DNA of 38,143 nt from an uncultured Chitinophagaceae bacterium (lineage in GTDB: Bacteria; Bacteroidota; Bacteroidia; Chitinophagales; Chitinophagaceae): positions 1 through 38,143 of the forward strand of contig CAIVCF010000036.1 in the NCBI GenBank assembly GCA_903904335.1, in the 5' to 3' direction. A model generated the notes under the pieces. It was not told the DNA's origin. It saw nothing but the letters and a program-made list of their open reading frames with translations, and ran no database searches. A program made the position numbers and the translations under genes. Positions within the stretch are counted from its first letter, which is position 1. Each line of letters begins with the position of its first letter. Of the stretch, positions 3,678 through 11,557 are shown piece after piece.

Positions 3678-6272
3678 CTATGCAGAATTTCTTCCTGCAT
3701 TGATAATTCCGAAAGAACAACGCATTACCAATTTCTCATACGTCTGCTTAACCGGCACATCAATTAACTGCTCTTCCAGTTCACGTACTTTTGTGATGGC
3801 ATATTGCTGAATAGTGATCAAAGGCAAAACAATTCTTTCCCGCATTTGAATCGACAATTGATCCACCGGATAATCAGCCATCAATTCTGTATGCCCTGAA
3901 AGCTTTTGTACATATTGTTTTGTGAGTTCATATTCTTCATGAATTTTATTCCATATCTCTCCATACACTGGATGTGTTGACAAGAAAGAAGTAAGCGGAA
4001 AAAAACACTTCTGCATCGCCATCTCAGAATTATCAATTAATGTTTTGAAGAATAAAGATCGATGATACATTTTTTGCAATTCATCCCACTTGCCTTGTTT
4101 TTCCAATTGCTGCAGAGCTGTACCTACTCCGTAATATCCGGTAACATTCTGTTTTAATTGACTCCACGCTCCCACAAATGGAATCGCACGCAGATCTTTT
4201 AAATTAATTTTTGAAGAAGCTCCTCTTTTCGCCGGCCTGCTGCCAATATTTGTTTCTGAATAAAAACGTAAAGGACTTGCGTGTCCTAAATATTCAATGA
4301 AGTAAGGATGTTCTTTCAACTGAATATATGATTGATAACTTTCTTCAGCCAATGATTGCAATAATTTCTCTTCATTTGGAAGTAATGTGACTTCATTATT
4401 TTTCAGCAGGTCATTATAAATCCCTGCATCAATCATCTGTTCAATGTTATACTGTGCTGCATCGATTGTCCCGAAATTAGAACTCACTGTTTGCCCCTGA
4501 ATGGTTAATTGTATTTCTTTATTTGCAATATTCTTTCCCATGGAAGCATAGAACTGATGCGTTTTTCCACCACCTCTTGCAGGCGGACCACCACGACCGT
4601 CAAAGAACACGACATCAACATTATATTTTTTTGATACAGTAGTCAATTCTTCTTTCGCTTTATAAATACTCCAGTTGGCCATCAGATAACCACCATCTTT
4701 TGTACCGTCAGAAAAACCAAGCATGATCGTCTGCTTGTTCTTTCTCATTTCTACATGTTTTCTGTACACTTTATTTTCATATAATTCAACCATCACTGCA
4801 GCAGCGTTTTGCAGGTCATCCACCGTTTCAAATAAAGGAACAATATCAACAGATAATTCTTCACTCTTCCATCCGCTTAATAATAATAATCCGAAAACTT
4901 CTATCGCATTCAATGCAGAATTACACTGACTGATGATATATCGGTTGCAACCTGCTTCACCGTTACGTTGCTGGATATTTTTGATAGCGGTCATCACATC
5001 CAAAGTATCTCTGTGTACATCATCTGTAATAAAAATATTATTACCTACAGTAGTTGTAATATTTGTAAGCAGTTCTATTTTTTTTGAAGAAGGTAAACTA
5101 CTGTAATCAGCAGGAAGGGCTTCTGTATTTAAAGCGATGGCTTCCAATACTTTTTCATGTACGCTGCTGTCCTGGCGAATATCTAATGAAGCAAAATGCA
5201 AACCAAATAGTTCTACCTTGTTAATCAATGAATCAATCAGATCAACGAACAAATTATTGTTCTCATAAATCAATAGGTGTTTGATATTTTTTAAGGTTAC
5301 GAGTATTTCTTCTTTGCTGAGATCTAAATCATGTCCCGGAATAAATAAATGTTCATACAATTTCTTTTCCAATTGAAACAATAAAATATCTACTCCTTTA
5401 AATGTCAATCTGCGTTTGAGTTTCCGAACATCGAGATAATAAGATTTAATGATGCTTCCTCTTAAAGCTTCAGCAACATGCAGTGTCGTATCTGTTTTCA
5501 CAAATGGATTACCATCTCTGTCTCCACCCGGCCAAAATCCCATCCTTACAATCGGGTTATCATAATCAACTGAATCGTGAAAATGATCTTTGATGAATGA
5601 AATAATCCTTCCCGCTGCTGGATAAAAAATATTTTCCAGATACCATATTAAACTTACAGCCTCATCATAAGGTGTGGGCTTTTGCTGTTGAAAGAAAGGC
5701 GTTCTTCCCAATTGCTGTAGGTAAGTATATATATGATGTTCGTTATTAGTGTTAACTGCCGAAGAAAGATCATGAATGATACTTAAAACTGCACCGCGAT
5801 AAAATTGTGTTGGATGTGCAGTGAGCACCAACTGAATATTGAAATCTTTTAATTTATTTTTTAATGCATCTTCTTTATGTTGTTGTTCAACAGCAACAGC
5901 TAAATTTTTCAATGTTCCCTTCCCGCTCATATCATGGATTTGTTTGAATGCAGCATCTTCCAGTGCATCAAACAAAACAACCTGGCGCTCGATATATTGT
6001 ACAAACCGAAACAGAATATCTAATTTTTCCTGTTCACTTTTTACAGAAGTTTGTTTTGCAAAAAATTCCTCGACAATTTCAACAGGGCTTTGTTTTTTCT
6101 TATAACCTTCCTCACAATTCAATAACAATAATGAAACGAGAATACCGGTCTTTTCAATACGATGAAAAGGCAACGAAGTAAACAAACTGTTGTATAATTG
6201 AAACTTGATACCTACCAGATTTTTGAAAGTCTGCAGGTTTGAGTTGTTCGACATAATTTTTTGTTTTACCAA
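3678..6272 (-). CDS. ppc: phosphoenolpyruvate carboxylase
   Basis: Carboxylates phosphoenolpyruvate to oxaloacetate, an anaplerotic cytosolic reaction feeding aspartate and so the neighbouring threonine operon. At 864 residues it is close to the family norm (E. coli 883). Visible motifs are LTAHPT with the catalytic His, GGDRDGNPF, DIRQ, the flexible-loop lysine in SDGTKDGG, GRGG...RGGG and NIGSRPAKR. Differences from the E. coli type: the His just before GRGG is Asp (FFDGRGGPPARGGG), TAHPTE reads TAHPTQ, and the usual RNTG C-terminus reads RNSA. The core Arg, Lys and His are kept, so it is probably active, belonging to a divergent PEPC branch. An internal ATG at 6254 is a possible alternative start. 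It is divergent from the thr leader. Confidence 0.93.
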   Translation of the reverse strand: MVKQKIMSNNSNLQTFKNLVGIKFQLYNSLFTSLPFHRIEKTGILVSLLLLNCEEGYKKKQSPVEIVEEFFAKQTSVKSEQEKLDILFRFVQYIERQVVLFDALEDAAFKQIHDMSGKGTLKNLAVAVEQQHKEDALKNKLKDFNIQLVLTAHPTQFYRGAVLSIIHDLSSAVNTNNEHHIYTYLQQLGRTPFFQQQKPTPYDEAVSLIWYLENIFYPAAGRIISFIKDHFHDSVDYDNPIVRMGFWPGGDRDGNPFVKTDTTLHVAEALRGSIIKSYYLDVRKLKRRLTFKGVDILLFQLEKKLYEHLFIPGHDLDLSKEEILVTLKNIKHLLIYENNNLFVDLIDSLINKVELFGLHFASLDIRQDSSVHEKVLEAIALNTEALPADYSSLPSSKKIELLTNITTTVGNNIFITDDVHRDTLDVMTAIKNIQQRNGEAGCNRYIISQCNSALNAIEVFGLLLLSGWKSEELSVDIVPLFETVDDLQNAAAVMVELYENKVYRKHVEMRKNKQTIMLGFSDGTKDGGYLMANWSIYKAKEELTTVSKKYNVDVVFFDGRGGPPARGGGKTHQFYASMGKNIANKEIQLTIQGQTVSSNFGTIDAAQYNIEQMIDAGIYNDLLKNNEVTLLPNEEKLLQSLAEESYQSYIQLKEHPYFIEYLGHASPLRFYSETNIGSRPAKRGASSKINLKDLRAIPFVGAWSQLKQNVTGYYGVGTALQQLEKQGKWDELQKMYHRSLFFKTLIDNSEMAMQKCFFPLTSFLSTHPVYGEIWNKIHEEYELTKQYVQKLSGHTELMADYPVDQLSIQMRERIVLPLITIQQYAITKVRELEEQLIDVPVKQTYEKLVMRCSFGIINAGRNSA

Positions 6273-6313
6273 TTGAAGGCAGGCGATCTTCAGGCTTGAA
6301 AATTAATAAAATT

Positions 6314-6345
6314 TTGTAAGAGTATTTAGATTTCCTTTATCTTCG
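6314..6345 (+). promoter_or_regulatory. promoter of the thr leader/operon
   Basis: TTG at 6314-6316, a 21-nt spacer and TATCTTCG at 6338-6345 match the Bacteroidetes pattern TTG-N19..21-TAnnTTTG with one mismatch. The expected start of transcription lies only a few nt before the leader-peptide ATG at 6357. Confidence 0.5.
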
Positions 6346-6356
6346 TGACCATAGTA

Positions 6357-6452
6357 ATGAAAAAACAGCAAAAAATACCATTCTTCCTTAACATAAGCAC
6401 ATCTGTGTTTATGGCTGTAATTACAGTTACAACCACTACGTTTACCCTTTAA
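6357..6452 (+). CDS. thrL: threonine-rich leader peptide (thr attenuator)
   Basis: A short reading frame of 31 codons beginning ATG AAA AAA and ending TAA, 86 nt before thrA. Its last third is dominated by Thr and hydrophobic codons: residues 20-31 read AVITVTTTTFTL, six of the last nine residues being Thr, using ACA, ACC, ACT and ACG. Threonine-operon leader peptides of E. coli work the same way: ribosome stalling on Thr/Ile codons blocks terminator formation. Here TTACCC (6442-6447) can pair with GGGTAA (6453-6458), and CGTT..CCC (6439-6447) with GGG...AACG (6480-6489), giving two exclusive folds. A strong U-tract terminator is not evident, so the mechanism remains inferred. The gene name is by analogy only. 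Confidence 0.6.
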   Translation: MKKQQKIPFFLNISTSVFMAVITVTTTTFTL

Positions 6453-6538
6453 GGGTAATATATTTCCATATCATCAATCGGGCATAACGCTGTTTATCTT
6501 TGTAAAGATTTATTCATATATTTTTCAAAATAGTTTTC

Positions 6539-8980
6539 ATGAAAGTTTTAAAGTTTGGTGGTTCTTCTGTAGCAAATGCAGAAAATATCAAAAAAGTTGT
6601 TGCTATCATCAGGCAACCCCAATATAAAAAATCAGTTATTGTATTCTCTGCTTTTGGAGGCGTGACTGATCTATTAATAAAAACAGGAACCGATGCTTCT
6701 CTTGGTAATGAAGCATATAAGGAAACCTTAACTGCTTTAGAAAAAAATCATATCGAAACTGCAAAAGGTTTATTGCCGGTAACAACACAAAGCAGTTGCC
6801 TCAGCAATATCAAACAACAATTCAATGAACTGGAAGATATTTGTGAAGGTGTTTTTAGATTAGGTGAATTATCCAAACGTACACAAGATCGTATCATCAG
6901 TTTCGGTGAATTGCTTTCGTCAAAAATCATCCATGCATATTTACAATCCACAAATGTAAATAGTGAATGGATAGACAGCAGATATCTTATCAAGACAAAT
7001 AGCAATTTTGGTTTTGCTGCTGTTGATTTTTCAATTACAAATAAATTAATCTCTAAAAAAATCAGTTCATCATCTCATTCATTATTCATTGCTCCCGGCT
7101 TTGTTGCAAGTGATGCAGATAACCATACAACAACATTAGGGCGTGGGGGTTCTGATTATACAGCATCCATTTTTGCAGCCGCATTAAATGTGGAAGATTT
7201 GGAAATATGGACGGATGTTAATGGCATGATGACCGCAGATCCACGATGGGTAAACAATGCAAGAACAATAACGCATACATCTTATCGCGAAGCGATGGAG
7301 TTATCTCATTTTGGTGCGAAAGTAATTTACCCACCAACCATTCAACCTGCGATGCATAAAGGAATTCGCATTTGGGTAAAGAATACTTTTGAACCTGATG
7401 CTTATGGAACATTGATTGAAGAATTTACAAAAGAAGAGGGGGAAATAATCACCGGCATTTCAAGTATCAATCATATTTCTTTGTTGAGTTTGGAAGGAAG
7501 CGGTATGGTGGGCATTCCCGGTTTTTCAAAAAGATTATTTGAAGCATTGGCGAATGAAAAAGTAAATGTGATCCTTATCACACAAAGCTCTTCAGAGCAT
7601 TCTATTTGTGTTGGTGTTAATTCTGCAGATGCAGCAAAAGCAAAAAAAACAGTAGATCATGCGTTTGATTATGAAATAAAAACAGAAAAAGTTGAACCGT
7701 TAAGAGTTGAAGAAGATTTATCCATCATTGCCTTGGTGGGTGACAGAATGCGCCACCATCCGGGTATTGCCGGAAGAATGTTTCACTCACTGGGAAGAAA
7801 CGGTATCAATATCCGCGCCATTGCACAAGGCTCATCTGAAAGAAATATTTCTGCTGTTGTAGCACACAACGATATTAAAAAAGCAGTGAACGTTTTACAC
7901 GAAGCTTTTTTTGAAACAACACACAAACAATTAAATGTTTTTATCGTGGGTGCTGGAAATGTGGGCGGAAAATTATTGGCACAAATAAACCAACAACAAG
8001 ATTATTTATTGCAGAATTTGAATTTACAAGTACGTGTAAGCGGAATCGCCACCAGCAAAAAAATGTTATTTGTAGAAAATGGAAATGAAATTGATCTGAC
8101 AAATTGGAAAGATAATTTATTACAAAGCCAATCGATGGATTTAGAAAATTTCGTAAACACCATCATCTCAAAAAATTTACGAAACAGCGTTTTTGTTGAT
8201 GTAACTGCGAATGCTGAAGTTGCCTCAGTCTATGATAAACTGCTGGCTAAAAGTATTTCAGTAGTTGCCTGCAACAAAATCGCAGCATCATCAGCTTATG
8301 TCAATTACAAAAAATTAAAATCATTGGCAAAAGAATTCAATGCATTATATCTTTTTGAAACCAATGTGGGCGCAGGTTTACCAGTAATAGGAACTTTAAA
8401 TGATCTGATCAAAAGCGGAGATAAAGTAAATAAAATTCAGGCAGTTTTATCCGGTACCTTGAATTTTGTTTTCAATAATTATGACGGATCAAAACCATTT
8501 GCACAAATTGTAAAACAAGCACAGGATGAGGGTTATACTGAACCTGATCCGCGTTTGGATTTGGGTGGAACGGATGTAATGAGGAAAATAATGATACTTG
8601 CCCGTGAAGCCGGAGAAAAAATTGAAATGGAAGATATTACCAATAATAGTTTTTTACCTGCATCCTGTTTTAAAGGAAGTGTTGCAGATTTTTATGTTGA
8701 AATGGAAAAGCACGAATCTCATTTCAAATCTTTATACGATGCAGCAGCAAAAGAAAAATGCAAATTAAAATTTGTTGCTAAATATGAAAATGGAAAAGCT
8801 GTTGTTGGTTTGCAACATATTCCTTCTAATTCTGATTTCTATCATTTATATGGCAAGGATAATATTGTTTTATTTTACACACAACGTTATCCTGAACAAC
8901 CATTGGTAGTAAAAGGTGCCGGTGCCGGTGCTGATGTAACTGCAAGCGGTGTATTTGCTGACATTATAAAGGCCTCCTAA
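6539..8980 (+). CDS. thrA: bifunctional aspartokinase / homoserine dehydrogenase
   Basis: Catalyses the first and third steps of threonine synthesis: aspartate phosphorylation and aspartate-semialdehyde reduction to homoserine. At 813 residues it matches E. coli ThrA (820). The aspartokinase domain (about 1-290) begins MKVLKFGGSSVANAENI and carries GRGGSDYTAS; two ACT domains follow (about 305-460, with ITQSSSEHSICVGV and INIRAIAQGSSERNIS), which normally bind threonine for feedback control; the NAD(P)-binding GAGNVGG opens the homoserine dehydrogenase domain near residue 470, followed by GTLNFVFNN and EPDPRLDLGGTDV. The extreme C-terminus (IIKAS) is encoded inside a GC-richer repeat-like segment and looks altered from the usual Bacteroidetes ending. 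First enzyme gene of the thr operon. Confidence 0.96.
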   Translation: MKVLKFGGSSVANAENIKKVVAIIRQPQYKKSVIVFSAFGGVTDLLIKTGTDASLGNEAYKETLTALEKNHIETAKGLLPVTTQSSCLSNIKQQFNELEDICEGVFRLGELSKRTQDRIISFGELLSSKIIHAYLQSTNVNSEWIDSRYLIKTNSNFGFAAVDFSITNKLISKKISSSSHSLFIAPGFVASDADNHTTTLGRGGSDYTASIFAAALNVEDLEIWTDVNGMMTADPRWVNNARTITHTSYREAMELSHFGAKVIYPPTIQPAMHKGIRIWVKNTFEPDAYGTLIEEFTKEEGEIITGISSINHISLLSLEGSGMVGIPGFSKRLFEALANEKVNVILITQSSSEHSICVGVNSADAAKAKKTVDHAFDYEIKTEKVEPLRVEEDLSIIALVGDRMRHHPGIAGRMFHSLGRNGINIRAIAQGSSERNISAVVAHNDIKKAVNVLHEAFFETTHKQLNVFIVGAGNVGGKLLAQINQQQDYLLQNLNLQVRVSGIATSKKMLFVENGNEIDLTNWKDNLLQSQSMDLENFVNTIISKNLRNSVFVDVTANAEVASVYDKLLAKSISVVACNKIAASSAYVNYKKLKSLAKEFNALYLFETNVGAGLPVIGTLNDLIKSGDKVNKIQAVLSGTLNFVFNNYDGSKPFAQIVKQAQDEGYTEPDPRLDLGGTDVMRKIMILAREAGEKIEMEDITNNSFLPASCFKGSVADFYVEMEKHESHFKSLYDAAAKEKCKLKFVAKYENGKAVVGLQHIPSNSDFYHLYGKDNIVLFYTQRYPEQPLVVKGAGAGADVTASGVFADIIKAS

Positions 8981-9001
8981 ATCCTCCGAAAGAGGACTTA
9001 A
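8972..9001 (-). repeat. short palindromic intergenic repeat, copy 1 (thrA end)
   Basis: Read on the minus strand it runs AAGTCCTC, TTTC, GGAGGATTT, AGGAGGCC. It is a pyrimidine/purine-structured unit with a small hairpin (TCCTC..GAGGA) of a style seen widely in Bacteroidetes intergenic DNA. It covers the last codons and stop of thrA. A second, inverted unit lies at 9053-9080 inside thrB. Confidence 0.5.
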
Positions 9002-9015
9002 AAAAAGTTTCAAAA

Positions 9016-9993
9016 ATGAATCAATTTATAAAAAAATATTACGATGCTTTAATCACCCCTTCGGGGGGCGGGGGGGCTGTAACCGTTTTAAGTCCGGCAA
9101 CAGTTGCAAACATTGTTTGCGGTTTTGATATTTTAGGTTTTGCGTTGAACGAACCGAATGATGAATTCACTATTTCATTCAGTGATGAAAAAGGTGTTAC
9201 CATTATTAATGATGATGAATATAACTTGCCTCTTGATTCAGAAAAAAATGTTTCAGGCGCTGCATTATTAGCACTACTCGATGAAACGCCCGATATCAAA
9301 GGTTTTCAGCTCATTAGCAAAAAAAATATTAAACCCGGAAGTGGTATCGGTAGCAGTGCTGCAAGTGCAGCAGGTGCTGTTGTTGCGGCGAATTATTTAT
9401 TGGAAAATCGTTTTAGCAAAGAAGATCTCGTTCGCTTTGCCATGTTTGGCGAAAAAGTTGCAAGCGGTGTAAAACATGCTGATAATATTGCTCCTGCAAT
9501 TTATGGCGGCGTTACTTTAATCCGTTCCATTTTTCCGTTAGACATTGTTAGCATTGATGCACCTGAATTACACGTTACTGTTGTACATCCGCAAATTGAA
9601 GTGAGAACTGCTGATGCACGCCAAATTTTAAAACAACGTGTATTATTAAAAGATGCCATCAAACAATGGGGAAATATTGCCGGGTTAGTTGCAGGCTTTT
9701 TAAAACATGATTATGATTTAATCGGCAGAAGTCTGGAAGATGTAATTATCGAACCCGTTCGAAGTATTTTAATTCCCGGTTTTGATGAAATAAAAAAGAA
9801 ATGCAAAGAAGCCGGGGCATTGGGTGGCGGTATTTCAGGATCAGGCCCTTCGATTTTTATGTTAAGCCAAAATGCAGTTGCAGCAAAGGTTATAGAAGCA
9901 GTGATGAAAGAAGTATATAACAATATGGGTTTGGCATATCATACACATGTAACAACACTTAATCAACAAGGCGTGAAATTAATTTCTGCCTAA
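9016..9993 (+). CDS. thrB: homoserine kinase
   Basis: GHMP-family kinase phosphorylating homoserine to O-phosphohomoserine, the substrate of ThrC. It has 325 residues. The family core starts at about residue 22 with VTVLSPATVANIVCGFDILGFAL; the GHMP ATP loop is PGSGIGSSAASAAGAVVA; a C-terminal GGGISGSGPS motif is present. The first 20 residues are an unusual extension (MNQFIKKYYDALITPSGGGG) containing four Gly encoded by a G6-C-G7 run. The 9016 ATG is the only ATG available before the core in this frame. The extension overlaps a repeat-like GC-rich hairpin and may have been captured from it. It follows thrA by 35 nt. Confidence 0.93.
   Translation: MNQFIKKYYDALITPSGGGGAVTVLSPATVANIVCGFDILGFALNEPNDEFTISFSDEKGVTIINDDEYNLPLDSEKNVSGAALLALLDETPDIKGFQLISKKNIKPGSGIGSSAASAAGAVVAANYLLENRFSKEDLVRFAMFGEKVASGVKHADNIAPAIYGGVTLIRSIFPLDIVSIDAPELHVTVVHPQIEVRTADARQILKQRVLLKDAIKQWGNIAGLVAGFLKHDYDLIGRSLEDVIIEPVRSILIPGFDEIKKKCKEAGALGGGISGSGPSIFMLSQNAVAAKVIEAVMKEVYNNMGLAYHTHVTTLNQQGVKLISA
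9053..9080 (+). repeat. GC-rich palindromic repeat, copy 2 (inside thrB)
   Basis: A run of CACCCC, TTC, six G, C and seven G forms a hairpin (CCCC with GGGG) in otherwise AT-rich DNA. It is roughly the inverted counterpart of the unit at 8972-9001. It is translated as ITPSGGGG in ThrB. The homopolymeric G tracts are prone to slippage. Confidence 0.5.
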
Positions 9994-10040
9994 TAAAGAA
10001 ATTTTTATGTTGCAAACTGCAAATCATTATTCATCATTTC

Positions 10041-10253
10041 TTGCGTCGCACACTTGTACTGTTGAAATTTTACTGAACAGAATTTTGAACCACAAAGGCG
10101 CAAAGACACAAAGCTTCACGAAGGAATTCTTTGTGCTACTTTGTGACTTAGTGGCTTAGTGGCTTAGTGGTTCACAAAAAAGGTTCCTCAAAGTTCAGAA
10201 CGCTGAAGTGTGCGACGCAACAAAAGCTTAATAAATATTCAAAAGCTAAGTAC
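10041..10253. repeat. large palindromic repeat element, copy A
   Basis: Perfect 15-bp inverted ends TTGCGTCGCACACTT (10041-10055) and its complement (10206-10220) enclose about 150 nt that are themselves imperfectly palindromic: GAACCAC and CACAAAG on the left answer CTTTGTG and GTGGTTC on the right, with a tandem TTAGTGGC unit at about 10149-10171. The 33 nt after the right end (10221-10253) match the flank of copy C in 24 of 33 positions, so the element extends beyond its end repeat. It separates thrB from thrC and contains no reading frame. It could act as a structured RNA or terminator-like insulator. Confidence 0.8.
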
Positions 10254-10264
10254 AAAAAATAACA

Positions 10265-11557
10265 ATGAATTATTATAGTTTAAATCATAACTCACCGCGT
10301 GTAAATTTTGCTGAAGCTGCATTACGCGGACAAGCACCTGATAAAGGTTTATACTTTCCGGAACATATTCCGCAACTGCATAAAAGTTTTATTGAAAACA
10401 TTAAATCGTTTTCAAAAGAAGAAATTGGTTTTGCTATCATGAAACCTTATGTTGGTGAAACCATTACTGACGTTGATTTACAGCATATCATTAATGAAAC
10501 CATCAACTTCGATTTTCCATTGTTAAAAATTACTGATAATATTTCTGCATTAGAATTATTTCACGGACCAACATTGGCATTCAAAGATGTGGGTGCAAGA
10601 TTTATGAGCAGATGTTTGGGCTATTTTAATCGTCATGCTTATCATAAAACAACGGTATTGGTTGCAACATCAGGTGATACAGGCGGTGCAGTTGCCAATG
10701 GATTTTTGGGCGTTGATGGTGTTGATGTAATTATTTTATACCCGTCAGGTAAAGTAAGTAAGATCCAGGAATTGCAATTAACAACGCTCGGACAAAATAT
10801 TACTGCATTAGAAGTGAGTGGAACATTTGATGATTGTCAGGCCATGGTAAAACAGGCATTCATGGATAATGACTTGAATCAAAAGATAAATTTGACTTCT
10901 GCCAATTCCATCAACGTTGCAAGATGGCTGCCGCAACAATTATATTATTTTTTCGCCTATCAACAATGGCAGGAAGATGAAGCGCCAATTATTTCTGTTC
11001 CCAGTGGAAATTTTGGAAATATTTGTGCAGGAATTTTAGCACACATAAGTGGATTACCTGTAAAACATTTTATTGCTGCATGTAATGCCAATGATGTTGT
11101 TCCGCAATATTTACAAACGGAACAATATTCACCAAAACCAGCCATAGCAACCATTTCCAATGCAATGGATGTTGGTAATCCGAGCAATTTCATTCGTGTA
11201 TTGGAATTATTCAATAACCAATTCAGTTCATTGAAAAATAAAATGAGCAGCATTAGTGTTGATGATGCAACAACTTCACAAACCATTAAAGATGTGTATC
11301 AGCAACATCATTATACATTAGATCCGCATGGTGCTGTTGCTTATTATGCTTTGGAAAATTATTTACAAACAAACAGTGGCAAAGGTTTTATTTTAGAAAC
11401 AGCACATCCTGTAAAATTTTCTGATACCGTTGAAGATGCTATTGGAATATCGATCGAGTTTCCTGAACAAGTGCAACATTTATTATCAGCCGAAAAGAAA
11501 AGCATTTTTATGCAGGCTGATTTTAATAATTTCAAGGAATGGCTGATGAATAGATAA
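10265..11557 (+). CDS. thrC: threonine synthase
   Basis: PLP-dependent enzyme converting O-phosphohomoserine to threonine, the last step of the pathway. It has 430 residues, as in E. coli (428). The N-terminus YYSLNHNSPRVNFAEAAL and GLYFPE are typical; the PLP lysine lies in HGPTLAFKDVGARF near residue 107; ATSGDTGGAVANGF binds the cofactor phosphate; SANSINVARWLPQ and ISVPSGNFGN follow. It is separated from thrB by a 271-nt gap filled by a palindromic repeat element, so it may need its own promoter or readthrough. No clear TAnnTTTG element was found immediately upstream. Confidence 0.96.
   Translation: MNYYSLNHNSPRVNFAEAALRGQAPDKGLYFPEHIPQLHKSFIENIKSFSKEEIGFAIMKPYVGETITDVDLQHIINETINFDFPLLKITDNISALELFHGPTLAFKDVGARFMSRCLGYFNRHAYHKTTVLVATSGDTGGAVANGFLGVDGVDVIILYPSGKVSKIQELQLTTLGQNITALEVSGTFDDCQAMVKQAFMDNDLNQKINLTSANSINVARWLPQQLYYFFAYQQWQEDEAPIISVPSGNFGNICAGILAHISGLPVKHFIAACNANDVVPQYLQTEQYSPKPAIATISNAMDVGNPSNFIRVLELFNNQFSSLKNKMSSISVDDATTSQTIKDVYQQHHYTLDPHGAVAYYALENYLQTNSGKGFILETAHPVKFSDTVEDAIGISIEFPEQVQHLLSAEKKSIFMQADFNNFKEWLMNR

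Follow-up and report, generated by a model that had tools for sequence, protein, structure and literature searches.

The locus described here raises the question whether a short reading frame rich in threonine codons, located in front of a threonine biosynthesis operon, is a regulatory leader, and by which output it would control the genes behind it. The window, by which we mean the whole 38,143-nt stretch of DNA analysed, comes from an uncultured Chitinophagaceae bacterium (genome G000, 3.1 Mb). Its thrABC operon spans positions 6539-11557 on the plus strand and consists of thrA, encoding aspartokinase/homoserine dehydrogenase I (6539-8980; matched by NF006959 with 1028.8 bits, the cut-off being 726), thrB, encoding homoserine kinase (9016-9993; NF002288), and thrC, encoding threonine synthase (10265-11557; TIGR00260). 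Chitinophagaceae isolates and Bacteroidetes MAGs are among the titled relatives of its ThrA. A phosphoenolpyruvate (PEP) carboxylase-like gene on the minus strand (3678-6272; 500.5 bits versus a cut-off of 815) is divergent from thrA, and the leader sits in the intergenic region common to the two genes. PEP carboxylase supplies the same pathway as the thr genes.

The leader ORF (6357-6452, plus strand) starts with the ATG at 6357-6359, ends with the TAA at 6450-6452 and encodes the peptide MKKQQKIPFFLNISTSVFMAVITVTTTTFTL, whose C-terminus reads TVTTTTFTL. On rereading the sequence we obtained the same figures as a preliminary description of this DNA: the frame has 31 codons, six of the last nine encode threonine, four of these are consecutive, and 86 nt separate the leader stop codon from the thrA ATG at 6539. 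The regulatory codons (ACA GTT ACA ACC ACT ACG TTT ACC) occupy positions 6423-6446. None of 5,000 dinucleotide shuffles of the region 6273-6538 contained an ORF with six Thr in its last 12 codons and two reached five, while the whole window, on both strands, contains a single further ORF (15 codons or longer) with five Thr in its last 12 codons. A search of NCBIfam with the leader peptide returned no family. At the gathering score, Rfam matched five tRNAs only in the window, and the Thr_leader family (RF00506) was absent among the matches up to E 5 at positions 6300-6560.

ThrA was found in 131 of the 195 genomes of the family at E 1e-150, and 110 of the upstream regions were fetched; the other 21 genomes, with the lowest-scoring or partial matches, lie outside the ORF count. 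With a cut-off of at least four Thr in the last 12 codons, a threonine codon-rich leader ORF, as is characteristic of ribosome-mediated attenuators, is present in 98 of the 110 upstream regions, as against none of 109 control stretches taken 450-900 nt upstream; among the reverse complements 1 of 110 passed, and among shuffles 15 of 550. The commonest ends of the peptides are Thr-Thr-Arg/Leu or Thr-Ile-Arg. The 12 regions below the cut-off are L025-L027, L081 (at a contig end), L110 and seven others, and Ile-rich versions of the leader occur among them (L047-L049, L085). L025-L027 represent one genus of the family without the thr leader, and L025 has a hairpin ACCCG..CGGGT followed by a T-rich tail instead. 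We also inspected 115 further loci, of which 80 came with record titles (some of these records repeat the first set) and 35 from the order. Fifty-two of them pass the cut-off, including one (L177) in which no leader was seen by eye. Among these further loci the leader ORF occurs in Chitinophaga (4/4 isolates), Chryseobacterium (2/2) and Hymenobacter (5/5 isolates), and also in Cloacibacterium, Flagellimonas and Solitalea; Sinomicrobium and the acidobacterial MAGs are without it, and it was found in 0 of 20 upstream regions from sibling families of the order.

The putative promoter of the leader (6314-6345, plus strand) consists of TTG at 6314-6316, a spacer of 21 nt and a -7 box of the Bacteroidota type, TATCTTCG, at 6338-6345, as had been proposed. 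The TAnnTTTG -7 box is cited in PMC7366714. Among the 104 leaders used here and wherever 104 are counted below (six of the 110 upstream regions were dropped), a box of the form TA[CT][ACT]TT(N)G precedes the leader in 82, versus 8 of 104 control stretches, and in 49 of those 82 a TTG lies 15-32 nt upstream of the box. A palindrome, TAACRN(1-2)TGTTR, is absent from the window and from all control stretches and lies upstream of the leader -7 box in 31 of the 104 leaders; it is possibly a regulator site or part of a -33 element.

Three RNA structures, P0, P1 and P2, accompany the leader ORF. P1 (6442-6458, TTACCC-TTTAA-GGGTAA) carries the stop codon in its loop, as is the case in most leaders; its 5' arm comes from the last Thr codon with its neighbours, its 3' arm from the bases after the stop codon. 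Through P1, the regulatory codons overlap with a conserved hairpin, another characteristic of ribosome-mediated attenuators. In a MAFFT alignment of 85 rows, which was not fitted to any structure, 89.7% of the P1 cells pair, and shifting the partner ruins the pairing. Changes on both sides were counted in 31 cells versus 7.8 in shuffles, a value reached by none of 500 shuffles; two of the five covariation measures on this alignment do not beat the shuffles, namely the pairs changed on both sides (4 versus 3.1) and the further pair types (8 versus 7.2). In 19 of the 85 rows a Thr-to-Ile change (ACC to ATC) is accompanied by G to A in the 3' arm. Both the conservation of the Thr-rich frame in relatives (98/110) and the compensating changes in its stem, to which the preliminary description had pointed as a check, are thus observed. 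That description had also drawn two mutually exclusive pairings, of which TTACCC with GGGTAA is P1 and is real. The second, CGTT..CCC with GGG..AACG, is possible in the window, whose leader is the only one of 104 to contain its elements, and we rejected it as a feature of the family.

P0 (6392-6427) comprises two hairpins (6392-6413 and 6414-6427) that lie within the ORF, where the Thr codons begin. Compared with codon shuffles, the 104 leaders have a mean z of -1.9 at this place, with 72% below -1 and none above +1, and perfect 5-bp stems occur in 65 of them versus a mean of 15.6 and a maximum of 27 in 200 shuffles. P2 (6480-6492, GGGC-ATAAC-GCTG) is weak in the window (3 bp, -1.6 kcal/mol). 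Its alignment, A5, was fitted to the model and contains 101 rows, three of which are second, spurious matches; the input was 100 preselected loci, with L202, L206 and L213 added and with near-identical loci, L025-L027, L081 and L110 among those omitted, and 98 of the 100 matched the model (L029 and L086 did not). In this model-fitted alignment the inner pair of P2 is UA in 23 rows, CG in 15, AU in 11, GC in 4, wobble in 3, unpaired in 20 and gapped in 25, while at the other three pairs of the consensus GGGC..GCYG only 1 to 3 rows have both bases changed. In eight relatives P2 is apparently swapped for a different hairpin in the same place, as judged by eye. In a position-anchored average of pairing over 96 leaders, P1 alone exceeded 0.12; this method misses P0 and P2 and stops before the thrA start.

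Between P1 and P2 lies the motif CATATYA. Leaders often have it twice, with a typical distance of 17-18 nt from the first base of the start codon to copy 1 and from that of the stop codon to copy 2. Copy 2 of the window is CATATCATC (6467-6475). Within 40 nt after the stop codon, ATATYA was found in 91 and CATATYA in 73 of the 104 leaders; with a looser pattern copy 2 was found in 98, its ATAT starting 14-18 nt past the end of the stop codon in 88 and at 15 nt in 46. The copy 1 site of the window (6372-6383, AAAATACCATTC) is decayed and does not match, whereas the site reads AATATCACC in L005 and AATATCATC in L011, and many other genera have CATATYA there. The strict motif occurs within the ORF in 53 of the 104 leaders, compared with 0 of 104 controls and a mean of 5.1 and a maximum of 12 in codon shuffles. 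With a looser pattern plus a start codon, copy 1 could be placed in 57 leaders; counted from the first base of the start codon, its distance is 18 nt in 41 of them and 15-18 nt in 53. Eight of the 53 strict matches, two of which (L007, L008) are near-identical, are off the CAT codon frame, which points to the nucleic acid and away from the peptide. Since the leaders share descent, the fixed distance alone is weak evidence; that the motif is kept amid diverged neighbours is stronger. CATATYA also follows P1 in 3 of 4 Chitinophaga isolates, in two Chryseobacterium, and in Cloacibacterium and Flagellimonas. A search of 29 genomes with the pattern RTG-N(11-15)-CATATYAYYTCNTC yielded eight sites in six of them, and to judge by coordinates one of these sites (G004, L334) falls at a thr leader.

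The distribution of the module was determined with the covariance model R1, which describes P1-CATATYA-P2; its 21 rows were picked by hand from the 46 of alignment A2, and these 46 had been chosen from the 85 of alignment A1. With stricter filters, R1 matches 105 of the 195 family genomes, once each, and 98 of these matches lie 40-199 nt before the ThrA match on the same strand. Of the other seven, five were found by reading to have a thrA start just downstream (G012, G013, G095, G153 and G044), one (G053, L348) precedes a ThrA-like frame with a diverged start, and one (G074) is at a contig end. Thirty of the 131 ThrA-bearing family genomes have no R1 match. At class level R1 matched 4 of 198 genomes, namely the window genome itself and three taken as chance; because R1 is tuned to the family, this is compatible with diverged forms elsewhere in the class, such as that of Chryseobacterium, which was seen by the ORF search. 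In the window genome R1 and the pattern ATATYAYC..GGGC..GCYG match once each, at thrA, and the idea of a general module that serves other operons was therefore rejected. For the other matches of R1 or the pattern, the contexts of 17 loci and of the three at class level were read by eye, and those without thrA were taken as chance.

Of 106 thr leaders, a scan for hairpins followed by a T-tract gave 10 a score of 8 kcal/mol or more, in eight cases through P1 and its T-rich tail, and gave 61 a score of zero, whereas 14 of 15 hisG leaders reach at least 12 kcal/mol in the same scan (13/13 in the family and 1/2 in the rest of the order). A strong U-tract intrinsic terminator between leader and thrA, as classical attenuators have, was thus not found in the thr leaders. 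For the window this agrees with what had been noted, with the reservation that a lax scan flags P1 followed by TATATTTCCA (one found versus 0.1 in shuffles), which counts against a reading without terminator. When the 5' arm of P1 was blocked, as a stalled ribosome would do, the freed 3' arm paired downstream with a mean of 0.58 versus 0.64 in base shuffles (five per leader, here and for the thrA start), and 41 of 96 leaders were above their shuffles. As the freed arm has no excess of downstream pairing, there is no sign, among these 96 leaders, of a selected, mutually exclusive antiterminator such as classical attenuators have. Hence, of the classical thr attenuator envisaged in the preliminary description, the Thr-codon leader with overlapping RNA structure is supported, but the pair of mutually exclusive structures is not (1/104 for the second pairing, 41/96 in the blocking analysis). 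Classical intrinsic-terminator attenuation would still explain the region if P1 were a weak terminator or if the scans had missed a terminator/antiterminator pair. The lax-scan hit, the eight leaders in which P1 with its T-rich tail scores 8 kcal/mol or more, and the Hymenobacter homologues, which look classical, all point that way; against them stand the 61 zero scores beside the strong hisG terminators and the pairing of the freed 3' arm, and we consider this explanation unlikely.

Translational attenuation, in which translation of the leader would alter access to the thrA start, was put forward in the preliminary description as an alternative and suits a leader without an intrinsic terminator. 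On average, the thrA start pairs slightly more with the module than shuffled starts do (0.081 versus 0.056), but only 48 of 95 leaders exceed their shuffles, so that no clear sign of sequestration was obtained in these 95; moreover, the start is less paired overall than shuffled starts (0.43 versus 0.51), and the length from stop codon to thrA, 63-240 nt, is unconserved. The stretch from P2 to thrA is likewise unconserved save for a weak A-rich patch. Control on thrA translation is thus not favoured, and we hold it to be quite improbable. The conservation of CATATYA amid diverged neighbours, with hairpins on both sides, and its recurrence after P1 in Chitinophaga, Chryseobacterium, Cloacibacterium and Flagellimonas, would also be expected if the motif were a single-strand site for an endonuclease or an RNA-binding protein, access to which is governed by the ribosome; the chance that such mRNA processing or protein binding is the right explanation seems small to us. 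Finally, the ORF might be a product of chance or a remnant, with thrA driven from TATCTTTG at 6495-6502, a perfect TAnnTTTG downstream of the ORF, which L004 and L011, of the same genus, also have. A perfect box downstream of the leader is present in only 4 of 104 leaders versus 82 with the upstream box, and both ORF and RNA are conserved; a start downstream of 6452 only, which had been named as the contrary case, thus does not appear to be borne out by the sequences, and we regard this explanation as very improbable.

In the explanation that we prefer and consider likely, the region is a ribosome-mediated Thr-codon leader controlling thrABC, probably at the level of transcription and with a non-canonical ending. 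We take transcription as the probable level of control since no result implicates the thrA start. The transcript would begin downstream of the -7 box but ahead of the leader ATG. With ample Thr-tRNA, the ribosome would run to the stop codon and leave, P1 would re-form, and the RNA polymerase, then near CATATYA/P2, would stop or be stopped ahead of thrA (OFF). At a shortage of Thr-tRNA, the ribosome would stall on the Thr codons in or just before the 5' arm of P1 and keep it open, and with P1 held open the polymerase would continue into thrA (ON). Stalled ribosomes would thus very probably switch the thr genes on at threonine shortage; we infer the sensing of threonine and its direction from thr attenuators already known and from the Hymenobacter leaders. 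Since P1 would be opened by a ribosome resting at the stop codon as well, the switch would depend on quick release. In the window, the weak P2 and the decayed copy 1 speak against this explanation; in the wider set, so do the two covariation measures of P1 that do not beat the shuffles, the 12 upstream regions below the ORF cut-off, the 30 ThrA-bearing genomes with no R1 match and the 0 of 20 in sibling families.

For the ending, our guess is a factor-dependent (e.g. Rho) or pause-type termination. The C/G ratio is 0.94 far upstream but 4.67 over the ORF's last 30 nt; one may speculate that Rho would fit such a C-rich, G-poor leader, although the Thr and Ile codons by themselves would yield that composition. 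It may likewise be guessed that polymerase pausing at CATATYA would fit a site just downstream of the start and stop codons. A tentative suggestion, possible rather than probable in our view, is to regard CATATYA as a new RNA-encoded signal, perhaps a pause site of the Bacteroidota RNA polymerase, which halts the polymerase as first the start codon (copy 1) and then the stop codon (copy 2) exits. If this were true, pausing at CATATYA would lock ribosome and polymerase in step and, together with P1/P2, replace the intrinsic terminator of classical attenuators.

The enterobacterial thr attenuator (thrL) has a Thr/Ile-rich leader peptide just before thrA and regulatory codons beside RNA structure. 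The window leader resembles thrL (RF00506) in these features and presumably works alike; it differs from thrL in having no Rfam Thr_leader match, no strong U-tract terminator and no antiterminator that could be found, and in its additional CATATYA/P2 module. The Hymenobacter thr leaders (L240, L243, L244, L246 and L257) share with it the Thr-rich ORF before thrA and a possible P1-like hairpin around the stop codon. Unlike the window leader, they were read by eye as having the pairings 1:2, 2:3 and 3:4 with a final T-run and are without CATATYA; in the terminator scan four of the five score, with 6.8 to 19.8 kcal/mol, L246 being the exception. As the Hymenobacter leaders read as classical, classical thr attenuation seems to be present in the phylum, and the family of the window would have a variant with another ending.

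In our search of the openly accessible literature, no published thr leader of such kind was recognised for Bacteroidota; Vitreschak et al., in 2004, are said to have mentioned Bacteroidetes/Chlorobi. For a 2010 survey (PMC2965389), the leader-peptide systems known outside Proteobacteria and Actinobacteria were ermC and the Firmicutes ones that the survey added, and a 2013 survey (PMC3766115) considered the amino-acid leader motifs of Rfam to be mostly gamma-proteobacterial. Leader-like sORFs of Bacteroides thetaiotaomicron are mentioned in PMC7366714, and for Flavobacterium psychrophilum a section of PMC9723704 describes strong clues of leader-peptide attenuation in front of amino-acid operons. 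The latter resemble the window leader in belonging to Bacteroidota, amino-acid operons and leader peptides; in contrast to the window, the 5' elements named in that section include those of pheA and hisG but none of thr. According to PMC1262725, the Mycobacterium cys leader peptides have a codon run near the stop and no obvious terminator, like the window leader, and were proposed as possibly Rho-dependent; no conserved, potentially terminating hairpins were found in them, whereas P0, P1, P2 and CATATYA are conserved here.

Leaders of other operons in related genomes, before hisG (L319-L332) and ilvD (L301, L304, L308, L309), are like the thr leader in position and in having an ORF rich in the corresponding residues (His or Ile/Val). 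They are unlike it in their GC-rich hairpin and U-tract, which were found by scan in 14 of 15 hisG leaders, also before hisG of the window genome, and by eye in the ilvD leaders. Thus one Bacteroidota family uses leader peptides at its thr, his and some ilv operons; the thr version has no strong intrinsic terminator, yet a motif is conserved in it at set distances from the start and stop codons, which makes it a testable case of ribosome position steering the polymerase without a U-tract terminator. Upstream of ilvD, the four loci listed encode Ile/Val-rich leader peptides followed by GC-rich hairpins and T-tracts, as judged by eye; at the ilvD of the window genome itself (L305), no such leader was seen by eye. 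Among the His-rich leaders before hisG, that of the window genome is L328 (G000:C123, about 1365-1475), with the His leader peptide MKQTTHIHHHHLPIG and a strong terminator. By eye, many of the hisG leaders show CATAT or CATAC near +15; the sequence there encodes His-Ile/Thr, possibly a peptide-level feature.
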